A DNA stretch of 10,166 nt. Source: a candidate division KSB1 bacterium. GTDB lineage: Bacteria > Zhuqueibacterota > JdFR-76 > DREG01. The position numbers and the translations under genes are program-made. Location: the NCBI GenBank assembly GCA_022566355.1, contig JADFJB010000148.1:1-10166 (forward strand), in the 5' to 3' direction. Position 1 is the stretch's first letter. Each line of letters starts with the position of its first letter. A model generated the notes under the pieces. That model had not been told where the DNA came from. It saw only the letters and a list, made by a program, of their open reading frames with translations, and ran no database searches. Positions 1 to 9,670 of this stretch are shown piece by piece.

Positions 1-434
1 GTTCTTTTCACGGCTAGGCTTCTAACATCTAACTTCTTCATAAATCCACTGATCATTTTTTGTTCTTCATTCAATTGTTCAAATAAATTCTTAAGAGAGG
101 TTGGATCAGTTAACCTGATCTATTCATGAATTATAGTATTAAGCTTGAAGTTTCAAAAGTGTCATCCCGTCGCGTAACGGGATCTATTTCCATAAAATTA
201 AAAAGCATAATTGTAAGTATAAAATAGTTGCAAAATAGATCCCTTCTGGATGACAGTGATAAGGTTTATGAATTATCCAAGTTAATTTGTTGCTGCTTTA
301 AAAATCAGCAATTGCGTTTCCAGTTCAAACGCCGCACCTAAGGCTATTTCTAAAAATCGCTTAAAATCTTTATCACTTTCGCGACTGCTGCCTTCTGCAA
401 TATTGGAAGGAATTGAAATGGCTGCCCTTTTCAT
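1..434 (-). pseudogene. Broken four-helix-bundle protein (23S rRNA IVS / S23 family), split by a palindromic element
   Basis: Two separated minus-strand pieces match the two halves of one S23-type four-helix-bundle protein. The upstream piece (434-282) reads 50 residues from an ATG and carries the family hallmark [10 protein letters not shown] followed by a Ser/Arg-rich turn, [10 protein letters not shown] and FELETQLL, then stops. The downstream piece (119 to beyond position 1) is an open frame with LKNLFEQLNEEQKMISGF and a Lys-rich end, which fits the last helix of the family. Between them lies an element with a 9-bp direct repeat (126-134 and 268-276). Joining the flanks does not restore one frame, and a TAG sits directly before the ATG where the family would continue (GLR-K-x-MKRA, off by one base), so there are further frameshifts. 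The first helix is missing. The family is found inside 23S rRNA intervening sequences and as free-standing genes; its function is unsettled. I am confident of the family and of the gene being broken. Confidence 0.8.
135..267. mobile_element. Short palindromic MITE/REP-like element with 9-bp flanking direct repeat
   Basis: The core has perfect inverted ends TGTCATCC (160-167) and GGATGACA (248-255), and a second perfect 11-bp inverted pair GGGATCTATTT (179-189) and AAATAGATCCC (233-243). The whole can therefore fold into a long hairpin. An alternative small hairpin is CCCGT/ACGGG (166-170 with 177-181). The exact 9-mer ATGAATTAT occurs at 126-134 and 268-276, which looks like a target-site duplication. 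The element sits inside an S23-type gene, which supports insertion. It has no coding capacity, so any movement would need a transposase supplied elsewhere. One caution is that the 9-mers lie 25 and 12 bp outside the inverted ends, so the true boundaries may be wider than the hairpin. Confidence 0.65.
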
Positions 435-572: not shown

Positions 573-1625
573 CTACTGTATTATTTTCACTTTGGATCGA
601 TTCCTCAACGTCTCAAACCCTTTAATGATTAACCGCTCATTCAGTCGTAATCCGTTGGTGACCTCAACCTCGGTTGGATTTTCCAATCCTGTTGTAATAA
701 CACGTTCTCGGGCTGCACCTCGTTCGACAATAAAAACTGTCTTTCCTCTTTGTTTGGCCAGAAGAATGTCTTTCGGTATTACGATCACACTGTCTTTTCT
801 TGCTATGATCACTTCTGCTTTGACAAACATTCCCGGGCGCATCAACCAATCCAGATTATCGATGGTTAGCGATGTTTTGAAAGTGCGAGTATCCGGATCG
901 ATCGCAGGCGAAACCTGGGTAATTTTACCCATCAGAGTATCATCAGGTAATGTGTAATTTATTAAACGAACCGATTGACCTAATTTTACATCATTGAGGT
1001 ATTTATCAGAAAGGTTAACATTCATGTACAAGCGGCTGTAATCCATGATCTTAACCATCAACAAATTCACATCAATCCTGGTAGCGTTGGTATAATATGG
1101 CAATTCCACAATGACACCACTAAACGGCGCTTTTATTTTCATTTTGGCCAACTGGATGCCCGCGTTCTCGTAAGAATACTTGGCGTTGATGTAATCCATT
1201 TCAGCATTTTTTAATTCACGAAGGGTTACACCACCTTTATCATAAAGTGATTTTTGCTTGTCGAATTCCCGTTTCGAAATGTCTAAATTAAGCACCTGAG
1301 ATTCGAGTTTGATGTTATTCTCAAATTCAGCATCTTCCAGGTGAATGATCTCCTGGCCTTGTTCCACTAAATCTCCCAGGGCGTAAGGCAGGCGTGTTTT
1401 AGGATTGGTTAATAATTTGTAATAGCCGGAAATTTCAGACTTTAAAGTTACTTCCTCAGTTGAATATACCGTTCCAGTCGCATCGATATATTGTTCGATA
1501 GGTTTATTTTTGATTTCTTCTACTGACACCGGAATAGAAATCTCAGTATCCAATGAGACTTCATCCGAAGCGCATCCGGCTAAAATAATAAAGCTGATAA
1601 ATAAGCAGAAATTCCTTTTATACAC
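573..1625 (-). CDS. RND-type efflux periplasmic adaptor (membrane-fusion) lipoprotein
   Basis: This is a membrane-fusion protein of the HlyD/AcrA type, expected to sit in the periplasm and join an inner-membrane transporter to a TolC-type channel. I choose the GTG at 1625-1623 (350 residues): AAGGAG lies at 1637-1632, six bases upstream, and the product begins MYKRNF and runs straight into a lipoprotein signal with lipobox LAGC. A TTG at 1646 would add seven residues and lacks that spacing. Numbered from the TTG, Cys25 is the lipidated residue, residues 55-105 form the first lipoyl half (GTVYSTEEVTLKSEISG), about 106-166 an alpha-hairpin, KIKAPFSGVIV (170-180) the second lipoyl half, and about 200-290 the beta-barrel with RPGMFVKAEV. 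The C-terminal membrane-proximal part follows with VIVIPKDIL and ERLIIKGFETL. It is the last gene of the minus-strand run, about 300 bp after the TolC-like gene. The family is usually paired with an RND pump, but here the nearest inner-membrane transporter is ABC-type. Confidence 0.9.
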   Translation of the reverse strand: MYKRNFCLFISFIILAGCASDEVSLDTEISIPVSVEEIKNKPIEQYIDATGTVYSTEEVTLKSEISGYYKLLTNPKTRLPYALGDLVEQGQEIIHLEDAEFENNIKLESQVLNLDISKREFDKQKSLYDKGGVTLRELKNAEMDYINAKYSYENAGIQLAKMKIKAPFSGVIVELPYYTNATRIDVNLLMVKIMDYSRLYMNVNLSDKYLNDVKLGQSVRLINYTLPDDTLMGKITQVSPAIDPDTRTFKTSLTIDNLDWLMRPGMFVKAEVIIARKDSVIVIPKDILLAKQRGKTVFIVERGAARERVITTGLENPTEVEVTNGLRLNERLIIKGFETLRNRSKVKIIQ

Positions 1626-1631
1626 TATAAG

Positions 1632-1637
1632 CTCCTT
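1632..1637 (-). promoter_or_regulatory. Shine-Dalgarno site that fixes the GTG start of the adaptor gene
   Basis: On the minus strand AAGGAG is followed by the six bases CTTATA and then GTG at 1625. This is a near-ideal site and spacing. The upstream TTG at 1646 overlaps this region and would place the site inside the coding sequence, so the GTG start is preferred. Confidence 0.75.
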
Positions 1638-1722
1638 ACCTCTCAAATAAATCTACAATTTTCAACTCTACAATCATACTGTCATGTTTGTGTCTTTTTA
1701 GATCAACACAGTACTACCACTG

Positions 1723-1925: not shown

Positions 1926-3437
1926 TTACAATCTATCTGGAGCCACAGATCTGTTCTTCTCGAAATCCCATAACGACTGGATTTTCAAATTCAATAACTC
2001 GATTCTATAATTTATTAAAGCATTGACTAGTGCAATTTTCTTCTCAGAAAGTTGGGTTTGAAACAAATTCAAATCCATACTGGTGAGATCGCCATTTTCA
2101 TAACGTTCACGATTAATTTCATAAGTCAGCTGGGCATTTCTTTCATTTTGCCGCGCAATTTCAATTTGATTTTCCAGGTTTTGCAGATTTCGGTAAACAC
2201 TCCTGATCGCAATGATGATATTGTTCTTCTCATCTTCTAATCCAAGCTCGTTGGCCTTAACCACCGCCTCGACAGATTTCATACGTGATTTTTTTTCACC
2301 CCAATCCCACAATGGGATTTCCACTGATAACGCAATCTGCTGGCTGTTTGTGGGATTCGAATAGATATCGTTAAATTGCTCATTGTCGCCAAAAAGTCCA
2401 ACCGATAAAGATACATTTCCTTGAAATTCGTTTGTCGCCGATGTTCTGATCAAATCAAATTGTGAGTTTTCTATATCGATTTCCCTTTGTCGCAGCTCCA
2501 TCCTTTTGCTAATTCCATGATCGATGGCTTTCTGTAATTCGACCTCTACTGACACGTGAGACACATCTGCAATCACCGAAATTTCATCAAACAACGATAT
2601 TCCAATGAGTTGCTTAAATTGATCTTTTGCATTTTCCAACAATACTTGCTGGTTTTGGTAATTGGATTTGCTGGTTGCAAGATTCAATTCCGCCTGGTAA
2701 AGCTCTTCTTTTGCTGAAATTCCCGCATCTACTTTATTCTTGATGATCTCATAACTGGATTGCTGGTTGATGTATTCTTCATTGGCTATTTGCACGCTCA
2801 TCTGGTTTTGAAACACATTATAAAATCCTTGCGTCACATTTCTCTCCAAGGCCAGCTTCTGAATCGAGTAACTTAAAGATGCATCTTCTAAATTCAACTC
2901 TAGTGCCTGTAAATCAAGTTTCGTTCTGTTATAAGTAAAGATGGGCTGATCGAAGCTCAGAAAAAAATTATTAGTGAAGGATTTTGTTCGTACACCCTGA
3001 AAATCACTAAAGGCGTCTTGCCAGGAAAATCGGTTGACCAAGGACAGAGTACCATCCGACCATTTGATAGGCTGGGTGATCCTAAACGTTCCCAAAGATT
3101 GCTTGGTTTCGCTGGTACTCCAGATAGAAAACAGGCTATTGAACTGCCGATCTCTACTGAAATCAAACGGTGTTACCGACAGGGAAAAATTCGATTTCAG
3201 GGCAGCATTTTGTGCATTCAGTGATTCTCGATTTCTTTCCAGATTTAAGAATGAGCGTTTGATATCCGGGCTATTTTCCGAAGCGATATTTAGAGCATTT
3301 TCTAATGTCAATACTGTTTGGGCAGAACCAGAGTTAGATAAAAATAGTGCCATAAATAAAACAAAATGAACCAAAAATAGGTCCACGATAAACTTGTGCC
3401 TGTACGTTTTTACCGGGTAAGCGCTCGGATGTGACAT
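1926..3437 (-). CDS. TolC-family outer-membrane efflux protein
   Basis: This is an outer-membrane channel of the TolC type, expected to form a trimeric beta-barrel with a long periplasmic alpha-helical tunnel and to serve as the exit duct for the exporter encoded alongside. The open frame starts at a TTG (3545; 539 residues). I prefer the ATG at 3437 (503 residues), because it gives a basic N-terminus (KTYRHK), a hydrophobic core (VDLFLVHFVLFMALFL) and a cleavage site near SGSAQ-T. AAGGAG lies upstream near 3495 but has no well-spaced in-frame start, so the start is uncertain. Numbered from the TTG, LTLENALNIASENSPDIK (79-96) is the typical first repeat opening. Residues 340-540 form the second repeat, with IALSVEIPLWDWGEKKSR and the late family motif YENGDLTSMDLNLFQTQLS. 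The length fits the family. The gene lies 264 bp downstream of the permease gene from its ATG, or 155 bp from the open frame's start. Confidence 0.9.
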   Translation of the reverse strand: MSHPSAYPVKTYRHKFIVDLFLVHFVLFMALFLSNSGSAQTVLTLENALNIASENSPDIKRSFLNLERNRESLNAQNAALKSNFSLSVTPFDFSRDRQFNSLFSIWSTSETKQSLGTFRITQPIKWSDGTLSLVNRFSWQDAFSDFQGVRTKSFTNNFFLSFDQPIFTYNRTKLDLQALELNLEDASLSYSIQKLALERNVTQGFYNVFQNQMSVQIANEEYINQQSSYEIIKNKVDAGISAKEELYQAELNLATSKSNYQNQQVLLENAKDQFKQLIGISLFDEISVIADVSHVSVEVELQKAIDHGISKRMELRQREIDIENSQFDLIRTSATNEFQGNVSLSVGLFGDNEQFNDIYSNPTNSQQIALSVEIPLWDWGEKKSRMKSVEAVVKANELGLEDEKNNIIIAIRSVYRNLQNLENQIEIARQNERNAQLTYEINRERYENGDLTSMDLNLFQTQLSEKKIALVNALINYRIELLNLKIQSLWDFEKNRSVAPDRL

Positions 3438-3588
3438 TCTTAGGATTTTTGAACATCGGTTACCACTCCATTTCAAGCTAAATAATACTCCTTCCTTGTT
3501 TTCACATAACCTCTTATCTTGTAGATTTAAGATCATTTTTATCAATTGCGACCTATCCTTTCACTATATCTAATTCCATGCACGTCGA

Positions 3589-3700: not shown

Positions 3701-6700
3701 TCATCTCTTCACCCACTTAACAGCATCCGCAATGACGATTCTGCCTTCTGAATTATTGGTTAATTCAACTTTTGCTGAATCGGCTGAAAAATAATAAGTC
3801 CCTAAAAAATTCCAGCCATTTTCAACTTCTGCTAAGTTTATTATTGGCTCATCGACGCCGTCATCATGATACACCAGAAACTGATATTTATCCTTTGTCT
3901 GGTTTTGGCTCTGCCCCCTAAATCTTCTTTGTCTGATGTTTACAGTATAACTATAGACGTCATAATTCCCGCTTTCCGGCAAAACAACATTCCATGCAAC
4001 TTTCTTATCGCCATTGCCCGATTCGATATAATAAGCGGAGTGAATATATCTGCCATAAAAATTTGATTGTGTCGTTGCCTGCCATTTTTTAGAGGGTTGA
4101 AAGAATTGAATACCGGCGTATTTTACTTCACTTTGAGAAGACATATTCTTGACTAATCCCTGGAGAAAACTTTGCGAAGATGTATTAAATATCTTAAAAC
4201 CGGGATCTTCATTATCAACGATGATTTCGTCTGAAGCTGTTGGTGAGATGGAATAGTCGAGGATTCGTTGGCCATCGAATGGTTTTGCCGATCGTACCAA
4301 TTCAAACTCGTCAAAAAACCTGGTCAAAACAGCAGGCAGGTTTTGAGAGATTAATGTATTGATGGTCATTAAACGCGGCATGTCGTCGAGAACGATACCA
4401 ATTTCTTTGGTTTCATTAGCACCTATTTGAATGATTTTTTCAATAGCAGGTTGGCTGCCTCCGCCACCAAAGCCACGCCCACCACCGCGTCCACGGCCGC
4501 CTCGATCACCTCCACCGAATCCACCCCTGCCAGAGGTTCGAAATGAGGCCACCAACAATCCTCCTACCGGTTCAGGATTTGTAACCTTAAATTTTACCTG
4601 GTATCGGGTTCTGTCGATATCCAGAACTTTGTAACCAATTACATCGCTGACTAAGAATCCAGGTAATTGCCTATCGTTAACCCATGCTTCTATATCTGCT
4701 GCTAAGTCCAATTGGAAACGTTCCTGTAACATCCCATTGAATGTCTCGAAATCCAATGCTTGAAATTTATATTCAGCCAATATTTCATTTAGGAAGTCCT
4801 GAAATTCTTCCGTTCCAATTTTACCCTGAATCAATGTAAAAAGATAATTACCCTTTGACTTTAATGCATTGTAAGCGACTTCCCGATTTGATTGGTCTGA
4901 CAACAATTCGATCAAACTTTTATCCATAAGTGCCAAATTGGCTTTTTCTTCATCATTCAGTCCGGTCATTCCTCGCAGGAAAGTACTGGCAAGATTATTT
5001 GATCCACCCTTTAAATAAGTTTCAAAGGCGATATTTAAAATCGGCCAACGTTCGGATTTCAGATGGTTCACAAATGTGTAGTAGTTCGGATAAATCGAAT
5101 AATCGTTTTCAGAAATATCCGGACTGCCAAAGAGAATCGGTGCGGTTGCAGCGGTAATTGTGGCTCCTGCCGTAGATCCCTGGTTATTACGGCCACCACC
5201 TTGCCTGCCTCTTCCAGCAAAGGCGCCTCGCGCTAAGAAAAATCGTGAAAGATTTGCGCTATTGGAAAATGTCGAAAGTACGAAACGATTAAATATTCTT
5301 CTCTGTATCTCCTGGGGAAGTACGGCCTGGTTACTGCGCTCAATTCGTCTTTGTTCCTGGCGTAATCCTTGTTTGAAATCAGCTCCAGTGAGGAGTATGC
5401 CATTTTCCGGTAGCCATACCATTTCCGGCTGTACTGTCTCGCGGCTGATGGTCCACATTCTTGCGTAGGTCCTGAATTGAATAGGAATTTCCACAAGTGA
5501 TAATCTCGGAAACGGGTACGCCAGGTTCAGATCTCGCTCATAATCCTGCTTGAGTTCGCTGATAATAGACGCAAGAGTATCTCCCAGCTCATCAAAATAG
5601 GGCATAAAATAATTATGTCTGTTTAATGTAAACAAATTGAAATGAACGGAATCAACCATTATGGAACGCTTTTCATAAGGACCAATAACCAAAGACAATT
5701 GCGTTAACGGATTCTCAGGTTTGAATGAGTATTTACCATTTTCAAGCCTTGTCCCCGCTCCCTGGGATATCACAGTTAATGCGTTTTTCGTCTCGACAGT
5801 CAATTGAAATCGGACAAATTCCTGATTGTGGTACTCGGGATGATTGGAGCTATATGTAACGCCAGGAATTGGATACCACAAGTTTTCGGGCGAAAGAAGA
5901 ACGTAATCTGCAGAGACGAAAGCATAACGCTTATCCACATTAATAATGCCCAAGTGAAAGTTCTTTTCCCGTACGGCGTTTTCTACATCTAAGTAACTGG
6001 CTTCCTCATTAATTGTACCGCTATAACTGATTGTTAATGAATCCGTTGTCTGAGGTAAAAGCTGCTCGAAAGGAGTAACCGACAGTATGTGCATTTCCCT
6101 CGTAAAGTCTAACTCTCGTGAATCCGCCTTAACCCTCTGCACAGTTAAGCCGGGATTAAGACTGAAAATGTAGCGATCGATGATTTGAGATGTGTTATTT
6201 TGAATGATTAGATTAGCTTTTACCTGGATTCCATTACCTGCGTGGATTAAATCGATGTCAGAGGATAGAGTCGAAACAACAGGCTCATCATAGAGTTTGT
6301 TGTTGATTTCAACCATATCTTGTCGCAGATTTTTACCTTCAGAAAATTTTGACACATATATATTTGCCATCGTCAAACCTGCAAAAAAGAATAGGATAGA
6401 AGCTACCAGGGAAAATCGAGTTAATAGCCTGGATTGCGGCAATCGTTTTAACAGGTAGACAGTCGCAAAGATAAAACTCAGCCCCAGAAAAGTATAAATC
6501 CCGCGATGGAGGAGGATACTATCCAGGTTGCCAAAGCCTATGAAATCTGAATACAACAATGGCACATTGAATGCCATATAATCAAATAAATGATAGAGTT
6601 TCTGATCGAATAAAAAAAGAGTTGAGGCAATATAACCCAGAAGCAGAATGAACGTAACAGCTTGGTTACGGATCAGGGACATAGTCAAAAAGGATAAGCC

Positions 6701-7186
6701 AAAAATATAAATCAGTGTCGGAATACTGAGTAGCAAAAGATAATAGATGTATGGCATTGGATTAAAGGGTACATCAGTGATAAGAAGATTAAAAATAGCG
6801 GAAATTAGCAACACAGCCAGATTCAATAATGCAAAAACAAACAAGATACCAACGGTTTTGCCGAAAACGTAATCGCCGTTTGTCATTGACCGCATATAAA
6901 CGACTTCGGTGGTGTCAAGCTTTTTATCCCTCTTCAAAAAATCGGAAGCCAGGAAAACTGCAATAACTGCCTGCACAACATTTAACAATAATAAGTTCAT
7001 ATAAGGAATAGAGGAAGGGATTCCACGAAACATCCATCGAGCAAATCCAATATCCGTCAAAACGAGCAGGTTAAGAATAACCAGGGTGACAATTGAAAAC
7101 ACCGCAAAAACACGAAAAAACCAACCCCTTAAAAGCGTCTTGATTTCATATCGAGCAACTGTCAAAATGTTAAATATAGACAGCAT
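3701..7186 (-). CDS. ABC-2 permease fused to an inactive M1-aminopeptidase-like domain and a golvesin-C-like domain
   Basis: This is a 1161-residue inner-membrane protein, far longer than an ordinary ABC-2 permease. The start is ATG with AAGGA eight bases upstream. Residues 1-280 are the ABC-2 membrane part, with hydrophobic segments near 22-46, 62-82, 109-134, 146-168, 174-193, 229-246 and 258-278. Residues about 300-860 follow the M1 aminopeptidase layout: a beta-rich N-part (LLSPENLWYPIPGV, 430-443), then YPFPRLSLVEIP (557-568) where M1 enzymes read YPF-x-LxLVExP, and late helices ending AWVNDRQLPGFLV (834-846). The catalytic HExxH is absent, with no histidine at all between about 530 and 700. 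Two Gly/Arg-rich insertions occur at about 655-670 and 886-910. Residues about 985-1161 resemble the golvesin C-terminal-like/xanthan-lyase-like domain (EIIVDNEDPGF, then FLGTYYFSADSAKVELTN and IVIADAVKWVK). The partner ATPase gene lies 168 bp upstream. Its substrate is unknown; a periplasmic binding or scaffolding role for the exterior is inference. Confidence 0.85.
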   Translation of the reverse strand: MLSIFNILTVARYEIKTLLRGWFFRVFAVFSIVTLVILNLLVLTDIGFARWMFRGIPSSIPYMNLLLLNVVQAVIAVFLASDFLKRDKKLDTTEVVYMRSMTNGDYVFGKTVGILFVFALLNLAVLLISAIFNLLITDVPFNPMPYIYYLLLLSIPTLIYIFGLSFLTMSLIRNQAVTFILLLGYIASTLFLFDQKLYHLFDYMAFNVPLLYSDFIGFGNLDSILLHRGIYTFLGLSFIFATVYLLKRLPQSRLLTRFSLVASILFFFAGLTMANIYVSKFSEGKNLRQDMVEINNKLYDEPVVSTLSSDIDLIHAGNGIQVKANLIIQNNTSQIIDRYIFSLNPGLTVQRVKADSRELDFTREMHILSVTPFEQLLPQTTDSLTISYSGTINEEASYLDVENAVREKNFHLGIINVDKRYAFVSADYVLLSPENLWYPIPGVTYSSNHPEYHNQEFVRFQLTVETKNALTVISQGAGTRLENGKYSFKPENPLTQLSLVIGPYEKRSIMVDSVHFNLFTLNRHNYFMPYFDELGDTLASIISELKQDYERDLNLAYPFPRLSLVEIPIQFRTYARMWTISRETVQPEMVWLPENGILLTGADFKQGLRQEQRRIERSNQAVLPQEIQRRIFNRFVLSTFSNSANLSRFFLARGAFAGRGRQGGGRNNQGSTAGATITAATAPILFGSPDISENDYSIYPNYYTFVNHLKSERWPILNIAFETYLKGGSNNLASTFLRGMTGLNDEEKANLALMDKSLIELLSDQSNREVAYNALKSKGNYLFTLIQGKIGTEEFQDFLNEILAEYKFQALDFETFNGMLQERFQLDLAADIEAWVNDRQLPGFLVSDVIGYKVLDIDRTRYQVKFKVTNPEPVGGLLVASFRTSGRGGFGGGDRGGRGRGGGRGFGGGGSQPAIEKIIQIGANETKEIGIVLDDMPRLMTINTLISQNLPAVLTRFFDEFELVRSAKPFDGQRILDYSISPTASDEIIVDNEDPGFKIFNTSSQSFLQGLVKNMSSQSEVKYAGIQFFQPSKKWQATTQSNFYGRYIHSAYYIESGNGDKKVAWNVVLPESGNYDVYSYTVNIRQRRFRGQSQNQTKDKYQFLVYHDDGVDEPIINLAEVENGWNFLGTYYFSADSAKVELTNNSEGRIVIADAVKWVKR
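4454..4531 (-). repeat. Gly/Arg-rich low-complexity coding stretch in the permease
   Basis: This stretch encodes residues 886-911 of the permease fusion, built of RGG, GGGR and GFGGGG units, and lies between two beta-strand-like segments (GLLVASFRTSG before, AIEKIIQIGA after). It is locally GC-rich in an AT-rich gene. A shorter relative is encoded at 5177-5224 (residues 655-670). Both look like expanded surface loops. Confidence 0.8.
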
Positions 7187-7354: not shown

Positions 7355-8245
7355 TTAATTGACTTTCTGATCAATACCAAACTCCATAAAATAGACATAA
7401 GCATGCTCCAGATTAGGCTCGATCTTTTTGCCTTTATAGCCATCGAGTTCATCAGCAACCAGCTGAACTTCCCAACCTCTGTCTGTAGGGACTGTTGAAA
7501 TCACTGGGAATTTTTCTTTCAGGGTCTCCAGCTCATTGTCCAATGCATCAACTTGCCAGACATGATCTTTTGCTTGCTCAATTAACTCATCCGGTGCTCC
7601 CTGGAAAACGATCTCACCTTCATTCAACAATGCCATATTGCGGCATGTGCTTGAGATATCTCCAATAATATGAGTAGATAGGATGATGATGATATCTTTC
7701 CGGCTCATATTGGCAAGCAAGTTTCTGAATTTTATTCTCTCTTCGGGGTCCAACCCTGTTGTCGGCTCGTCGACGATCACCACTTTAGGCTCTCCAATCA
7801 ACGCCTGGGCAATACCCAACCGACGTTTCATCCCCCCCGACAGTTTATTTGCCTGTCGATCCCGGACATCAAAGAGACCGACCTGTTCCAGCAATTCATC
7901 CACAGCATTTCTACGCTTCGCTTTTTCTTTTAATCCTACCAGGCGAGCGACATAATCCAAAAACTCCCAGGTTTTTAGTTTCGAAAAGGAATGAAATTCT
8001 TGCGGCAGGTAACCTAACATGGCGCGAATTTCACGTCGATTTTTCTGTAAATCCAGATCGTTCACTTTTACAACCCCTGAAGTCGGTTTTATCAGGGTTA
8101 CTAATATCCGCATCAGGGTTGTTTTGCCGGCGCCATTGGGCCCTAATAATCCAAACATGCCACTATCGATCTGTAAATTGATGTTTTTTATTGCATGATT
8201 TGTGCGGTTGTAAACTTTGTTTAGGCCTTCGATTGTGATCTTCAC
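7355..8245 (-). CDS. ABC transporter ATP-binding protein (CcmA/NatA-like)
   Basis: This is a 296-residue nucleotide-binding subunit that hydrolyses ATP to drive the ABC-2 permease encoded next. All key motifs are intact: Walker A GPNGAGKT (35-42), Q-loop Gln82 in YLPQEF, signature LSGGMKRRLGIAQAL (135-149), Walker B VVIVDEPTTGLD (155-166) and H-loop His192 in LSTHI. The C-terminal 90 residues include a short accessory domain and the family ending LEHAYVYFMEFG. The start is GTG at 8245; the product then begins MKITIEGLNKVYN, exactly where the family normally starts. The ribosome site is weak (AAGAG about 12 bases upstream). It is the first gene of the four-gene minus-strand run, divergent from the lipoprotein gene at 8837. 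The direct pairing with an ABC-2 permease argues for export, but the substrate cannot be read from the sequence. Confidence 0.95.
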   Translation of the reverse strand: MKITIEGLNKVYNRTNHAIKNINLQIDSGMFGLLGPNGAGKTTLMRILVTLIKPTSGVVKVNDLDLQKNRREIRAMLGYLPQEFHSFSKLKTWEFLDYVARLVGLKEKAKRRNAVDELLEQVGLFDVRDRQANKLSGGMKRRLGIAQALIGEPKVVIVDEPTTGLDPEERIKFRNLLANMSRKDIIIILSTHIIGDISSTCRNMALLNEGEIVFQGAPDELIEQAKDHVWQVDALDNELETLKEKFPVISTVPTDRGWEVQLVADELDGYKGKKIEPNLEHAYVYFMEFGIDQKVN

Positions 8246-8836: not shown

Positions 8837-9670
8837 ATGAAAACACTAAACATAAAATCCACAATTCCTAATTTAGTAAAGCCAGCATTTGTATTTCTGT
8901 TGATGATACCGGCATTGTCCGCGTGTAAAAAGTTAAACCTGGAAAGTCCCTCATTGGATCGGGAGATTATTATTGATGGAAATTATGATGATTGGTCGGG
9001 TCAAATGCAGTTATTAGAAAAGGATAAAATTTCGGTCGGATTGATGAATGATGCGGAATATTTATACCTTAGTTTAGTAACAAACGATCGCCAAATTAGA
9101 AGCCAGATGATGTTTATGGGTTTTACCCTCTGGTTAGATCCACTAGGCGGCAAGAAAAAAACTTTTGGCATCCGTTTTCCAATAGGAATGACAGAATCCG
9201 GGATGTCCATGCGCGAAATGAGGGAAGAACGAAACCAGGCACAAATGGAGGATATTTTCTTCCAGGCAATGTACGAACTGGAAATCCTTGGACCTGATGA
9301 TGGAGATCGAACGAGACTTGGAGTTTCGGAAATTCAAGGATTGGAAGTGAAAGCAAATCCATCACGGGGAAGTTTTGTTTACGAACTAAAACTTCCATTA
9401 AAAGCAGAGGGTTTATACAATTATGCAATCAATATTGAACCGGGAAGTCTAATTGGGATCGGTTTGGAAACCCAGGAAATGGACCGGGGAATGATGGGTG
9501 ATCGAATGGGTAGCGGTGGCATGGGTGGCGGACGAGATCGTATAGGGGGTGGAGGAAGGCGTGGTGGTGGTGGACAGGGAGGTAGAGGTGGTGGGATGGG
9601 TGGTTCTGGTGGTAGAGAAGCCCCACAGCCATTGAAAGTTTGGGCGGTGGTGCAATTAGCCTCTGAATAA
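8837..9670 (+). CDS. CBM9/DOMON-like lipoprotein with Gly/Arg/Met-rich tail
   Basis: This is a 277-residue predicted lipoprotein. The first 30 residues are a signal peptide (hydrophobic FVFLLMIPALSAC) with lipobox LSAC; Cys30 would be lipidated and the Lys-Lys after it does not signal inner-membrane retention. Residues about 43-60 (IIIDGNYDDWSG) followed by VGLMNDAEYLYLSLVTND match the opening of carbohydrate-binding-module-9/DOMON-like domains, where an IDG-x(3)-DW motif precedes a beta-strand with the pattern N-D-x-x-x-L-Y. FTLWLDPLGGKKKTFGIRFP and YELKLPL continue the beta-sandwich. Residues 217-260 are a low-complexity Gly/Arg/Met segment, and a final strand (LKVWAVVQLA) closes the protein. 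Ligand and role are unknown. It is the only complete plus-strand gene, divergent from the exporter run, and its stop directly abuts a truncated dUTPase frame. Confidence 0.8.
   Translation: MKTLNIKSTIPNLVKPAFVFLLMIPALSACKKLNLESPSLDREIIIDGNYDDWSGQMQLLEKDKISVGLMNDAEYLYLSLVTNDRQIRSQMMFMGFTLWLDPLGGKKKTFGIRFPIGMTESGMSMREMREERNQAQMEDIFFQAMYELEILGPDDGDRTRLGVSEIQGLEVKANPSRGSFVYELKLPLKAEGLYNYAINIEPGSLIGIGLETQEMDRGMMGDRMGSGGMGGGRDRIGGGGRRGGGGQGGRGGGMGGSGGREAPQPLKVWAVVQLASE
9485..9616 (+). repeat. Gly/Arg/Met-rich low-complexity coding stretch in the lipoprotein
   Basis: This stretch encodes residues 217-260, made of MGG, GGGR, RRGGGG and GGRGGG units. It sits just before the last beta-strand, like the loop insertions of the permease encoded at 3701-7186. 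GGT and GGA codons are mixed, so it is not a single perfect DNA repeat. Confidence 0.8.

Follow-up and report, generated by a model that had tools for sequence, protein, structure and literature searches.

Envelope-spanning exporters are usually classed as ABC, RND or MFS systems, each with its own inner-membrane motor. Tripartite-pump operons described in the review PMC8277102 encode inner-membrane transporters of a single kind or, in the case of MdtBC, a pair of RND subunits, where one adaptor gene is accompanied by two consecutive RND genes. In VarABCDEF and MacAB-type pumps an ABC transporter is encoded with an adaptor and an outer membrane channel (PMC5595328), in operons without RND permeases. 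The locus described here resembles both arrangements and departs from each. The single adaptor and paired RND genes of its homologues recall MdtABC-type operons but are preceded by an ABC ATPase, an ABC-2 permease fused to an inactive M1 peptidase fold (the dead-M1 permease) and a TolC of their own, and the ABC protein is of the ABC-2/M1 kind, in contrast to the MacB fold.

The permease itself is akin to ABC-2/M1 fusions with an intact HExxH motif, which an earlier note on this DNA had expected in Bacteroidota and which do exist in genomes of that phylum (L208–L212; 1217–1242 aa, 12–13 TM segments, HEVAH or HEFAH, PF01433 over its cut-off). In these fusions, as in the dead-M1 permease, an ABC-2 unit precedes an M1 fold on the outside and an ATPase gene adjoins, and the homology covers the M1 part together with the beta domain that follows (hhalign E 2.4e-14). 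They differ in having two ABC-2 units, where the dead-M1 permease has one of ~7 TM segments, in keeping the zinc site, and in lacking both the golvesin tail and any TolC, adaptor or RND neighbours (0/5 loci, with the ATPase alone present). Among M1 peptidases proper, IRAP, ERAP1, the Deinococcus enzyme 6iff and tricorn F3 share the fold of domains I–III (Z ~21), whereas the dead-M1 permease has no HExxH, appears to lack the third zinc ligand and is tethered to the membrane by its ABC-2 part. A precedent for an M1-type fold that serves binding and not catalysis is Taf2 of TFIID, whose aminopeptidase-homology domain makes contact with promoter DNA as well as with other subunits (PMC6220335); Taf2 is a eukaryotic transcription factor with no transporter, and the likeness is one of fold.

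We analyzed a stretch of 10,166 nucleotides from a candidate division KSB1 bacterium (contig JADFJB010000148.1), hereafter the window. It encodes a protein of 1161 aa that is a single ABC-2 unit joined to an M1 fold without its zinc site and to a golvesin-C/CBM35-like jelly roll. The parts (ABC-2 permease, M1 fold, golvesin/CBM tail, RND pump) are known, while the combination is without description in the searchable literature, from which subscription papers are mostly absent and in which we found no account of this family, whether among ABC-2/M1 fusions, golvesin domains paired with ABC transporters or mixed ABC/RND operons. The dead-M1 permease apparently marks a widespread export machine, seemingly unstudied, and a gene row that, across several phyla, combines one adaptor and one channel with both an ABC motor and, usually, a pair of RND permeases would be an exception to the usual classification that deserves explanation. 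Because its genetic setting is clear and some of its hosts are in culture (Prolixibacter, Mariniphaga, Sunxiuqinia), this family of bacterial pseudo-peptidases is also directly open to functional tests.

Architecture of the dead-M1 permease

The gene (3701..7186) reads on the minus strand from an ATG at 7186 to a stop at 3701, and its assignment draws on profile searches, an AlphaFold model and structure comparison. Residues 1–285 (6332..7186, minus) form a membrane part with about seven hydrophobic segments and a predicted C-terminus on the outside, as judged from hydropathy, charged loops and the homologous ABC-2 unit, the second of two, in the active fusions. Its Lys/Arg-rich loops, at residues 84–113 and 248–259, place the remainder of the protein outside the cytoplasm. 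The ABC-2 match in Pfam, PF12679, is not significant (E 0.13); the assignment of one ABC-2 unit is nonetheless supported by the predicted topology, the neighbouring ATPase and relatedness to the active fusions, themselves matched by PF12730. Consistent with this kinship, residues 10–405 align to residues 320–732 of the fusion L208 (blastp E 2e-8), that is, to its second half.

The protein ends in a jelly roll (residues ~982–1161; 3704..4243, minus) that bears out the golvesin-C-like module seen in the earlier note. Of the two Pfam families named there, Golvesin_C (PF25275) passes its cut-off, matching residues 1029–1159 (E 1.2e-15, 58.2 bits against a gathering threshold of 31.6), and PF01433 remains under its own, matching residues 761–835 alone and with just the tail of the model (E 9e-4). 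Compared in isolation, the tail superposes on the C-terminal domain of Paenibacillus xanthan lyase (6f2p; Z 18.3, rmsd 2.4 over 134 residues) and on CBM35 modules (Z ~12–13), and the xanthan lyase tail is also matched by a profile of 61 ectodomains (E 1.6e-12). The likeness is one of fold, and here, unlike in those proteins, the jelly roll is joined to a transporter.

A peptidase fold on the outside

Between membrane part and tail lie three regions on the minus strand: an N-terminal beta domain of M1 type (residues ~300–520; 5627..6289), assigned from a profile match to 6a8z/6iff and from structure; a catalytic-type domain without a zinc site (residues ~520–846; 4649..5629), assigned from profile, model, structure comparison and column counts; and a beta domain like M1 domain III (residues ~847–960; 4307..4648), assigned from model, structure and alignment, which contains a Gly/Arg stretch at 889–910. 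The M1 landmarks YPFPRLSLVEIP (residues 557–568) and AWVNDRQLPGFLV (residues 834–846) lie where they had first been noticed. A search of the PDB with the single window protein returned no real match, and M1 structures were reached solely by the family profile built from the 61 homologous ectodomains. Its matches to solved structures included the M1 peptidases 6a8z/6iff (E 1e-8), tricorn F3 (1.7e-7) and a cold-active aminopeptidase (3.5e-7), the 6a8z match covering both the N-terminal beta domain and the region after the zinc site.

The AlphaFold model of residues 285–1161 (mean pLDDT 86.7, pTM 0.84) points the same way. Its best Foldseek E-value is 1.3e-20, to IRAP, and VIA-align superposes it on IRAP 7zyf (Z 21.9, rmsd 5.8 over 471 residues) and on the Deinococcus M1 enzyme 6iff (Z 21.9, rmsd 4.4 over 371). 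In the predicted structure the M1 fold of the exterior, beta domain plus thermolysin-like domain, is thus confirmed, in agreement with the family profile, and the suspicion of an M1-like fold voiced in the earlier note holds.

Loss of the zinc site

The dead-M1 permease contains no HExxH anywhere in its sequence and no histidine between residues 524 and 708, as the earlier note had reported for about 530–700. The active-site helix persists at residues 624–640, with QEIQR (residues 625–629; 5300..5314, minus) where HExxH would be expected. This placement comes from the columns of 96 homologues and from the hhalign profile alignment to the active fusions (E 2.4e-14), in which the TAHEVAHQWW helix pairs with the QEIQR helix and which is locally weak there. 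In the helix that would supply the third ligand (residues 715–727; 5006..5044, minus; from the model and column counts) the expected Glu appears to be missing, and the near-invariant Glu722 would lie one turn later in a register set by motif spacing. The earlier note had a Gly/Arg loop (655–670) take the place of the site, a proposal that we reject: the site helix is still there, and the loop belongs to a disordered, mostly window-specific insertion after it (residues ~645–692; 5111..5254, minus; from the alignment and pLDDT under 50).

The homologues show how far this loss extends. HExxH, searched for anywhere in the sequence, is present in 0/96 non-redundant homologues from seven phyla, and at neither of the two zinc-His columns is His among the common residues. 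Because no homologue keeps the motif, its loss is clade-wide and old, which rules out an active enzyme that was mutated or misassembled at this locus. Reading frames are intact at 24–53% identity across several phyla, so the family has been retained and is not decaying. A maximum-likelihood tree places the dead families A and B together on one side of a branch (support 100/99) and the active M1s, 12 secreted proteins and five ABC-2/M1 fusions, on the other. As read from these comparisons, the loss of the zinc site is old, clade-wide and found in proteins still under selection, and the repurposed, non-enzymatic exterior supposed in the earlier note is well supported by the M1 fold together with the missing motif.

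What the family has kept bears on whether the exterior might still be an enzyme, with a non-zinc or shifted site built on acidic residues and H524. E566, P568, P587 and E594 are invariant in 96/96 homologues, E722, D536 and Q586 are each kept in 95/96 and H524 in 93/96, and the residues of the active fusions that correspond to E566, P568, E594 and K778 are invariant there. The near-invariance of E566, E594, E722, D536 and H524 is what such a site would lead one to expect. However, P568, P587 and others are just as invariant, as structure would demand, and the retained residues could have a structural role alone; the whole protein contains no Cys, H524 is the sole conserved His near the site, and we know of no enzyme of this kind. 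We consider an altered enzyme very improbable.

HExxH and the third-ligand Glu of M1 enzymes are usually separated by 18 residues, a spacing that appears to be 19 in the active fusions L208–L212. Secreted M1-like proteins of relatives (L171–L174) carry HEILH with no Glu 18 residues later and possibly represent another altered M1 group.

An ABC motor in an RND gene row

In the window the operon begins with an ABC ATPase gene (7355..8245, minus; PF00005 E 2e-32; Walker A GPNGAGKT, LSGG, DEPTTGLD), and the dead-M1 permease is followed by genes for a TolC-type outer membrane channel (1926..3545, minus; PF02321 E 2e-41) and an RND-type periplasmic adaptor of the MFP family (573..1646, minus; TIGR01730, 177 bits against a cut-off of 94.9). 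The contig stops 572 bp past the adaptor gene, at the point where an RND gene would be due, and holds none, and no RND gene of the expected identity was found in the window's assembly. A scan of contigs with one protein as query returned no homologous loci, while the alignment as query returned 80. We scored neighbours over 96 non-redundant loci from KSB1, Bacteroidota, Latescibacterota, Krumholzibacteriota, Calditrichota, Chlorobiota and Ignavibacteriota, counting each gene solely where the contig leaves room for it.

The conserved order, all on one strand and common to families A and B, is ATPase, dead-M1 permease, TolC, adaptor, RND, RND. An ATPase lies upstream in 86/90 loci, TolC downstream in 80/87 and the adaptor downstream in 77/79; an RND permease follows in 62/65 loci and a second one in 54/55. 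The first RND matches ACR_tran (E 7e-222), and a single TM4 aspartate (VDN or LDN) is kept in both RND types. No recurrent cargo gene adjoins the operon in the homologous loci. The operon had been taken for a plain ABC tripartite pump, an idea dropped once the RND genes were seen downstream in these loci. Membership in a defence system was rejected, with no PADLOC match for the permease, as was spread by plasmids, with no plasmid match.

Permease and pump also tend to occur together by genome. Among 59 genomes around the window, scored for close relatives of the RND type found at the dead-M1 loci, 21 have both, six the permease only, two the RND only and 30 neither (Fisher 1.2e-8, a value that ignores shared ancestry). 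Three loci with room for it have no RND gene adjoining the adaptor (L053, L121 and L149), and the genome of L053 (G026) keeps the RND although on a separate contig from the permease.

A possible route for cargo

We infer that the ATPase and the dead-M1 permease add an ATP-driven module to an RND tripartite exporter, with the dead exterior to hold cargo or pass it on. At the inner membrane the two proteins would form a homodimeric half-transporter by which cargo may be moved, flipped or extracted. This cargo, probably a peptide or an amphipathic molecule, would be bound uncleaved in the cleft of the dead M1 fold, and the CBM-like tail may fasten the exterior either to glycan or to the adaptor protein. 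The proton-driven RND/adaptor/TolC conduit would then take the cargo across the outer membrane, so that ATP and then proton-motive force would power successive steps along one export route. Taken as a whole, from the observed family and operon to the presumed handover of cargo, this is our best explanation and the simplest to take in all the observations, and we give it slightly less than even credence. Gene neighbourhood is no proof of a shared complex. Its most novel form, a hybrid machine in which an ABC-2 half-transporter and a two-subunit RND pump use one adaptor–TolC conduit with the dead peptidase and CBM-like parts as cargo receiver between them, we consider somewhat less likely than not.

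The same gene row might instead encode two separate pumps under one promoter. One would be an ABC exporter, or an ABC/adaptor/TolC pump, and the other an RND pump that handles a different substrate through the same adaptor and TolC. Each gene set could act alone, the active ABC-2/M1 fusions get by with an ATPase alone, and different pumps share TolC channels in other bacteria (PMC8277102). Against such independence, gene order is kept over several phyla and in both families, and permease and pump are present or absent together by genome, in G026 even when unlinked, and we hold two pumps to be unlikely.

That the ABC part moves no cargo is, in our estimate, also unlikely, though slightly less so: ATP would then shape or gate the RND/adaptor/TolC pump, with the dead M1 exterior as a docking scaffold. 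Mechanical control by ABC proteins is familiar from FtsEX and MacB, although ABC-2 permeases are usually transporters. The ectodomain is very large and non-enzymatic and is encoded alongside an RND-type adaptor and RND permeases, as a docking role would have it, and Taf2 offers the precedent of an aminopeptidase-homology scaffold (PMC6220335). The reading in which cargo is handed over to the RND conduit remains the one that we prefer.

Flanking sequences and a second copy

Beyond the adaptor gene, positions 1–572 of the window (minus) contain a short tandem repetition of GACGATT, and a 50-aa ORF at 282–434 (minus) resembles, judging by eye, the four-helix-bundle/S23 family. At the other end, a divergent gene (8837–9670, plus) encodes a putative lipoprotein that has no match in Pfam. 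Its start (YDDWSG) we take by eye to be CBM9-like, and its C-terminus, rich in Gly, Arg and Met, is similar to the permease's Gly/Arg loops. The gene was rejected as a member of the system, not being conserved beside the homologous operons.

The window's genome carries a second, ~26% identical copy of the system (L042, G000:C72:5035-17994), a family-B row in which a pair of RND genes accompanies those for the ATPase, dead-M1 permease, TolC and adaptor. A practical risk is that dead-M1 proteins are annotated as M1 peptidases. The dead M1 domain of L042 passes the PF01433 cut-off, and automatic annotation may call this protein a peptidase.
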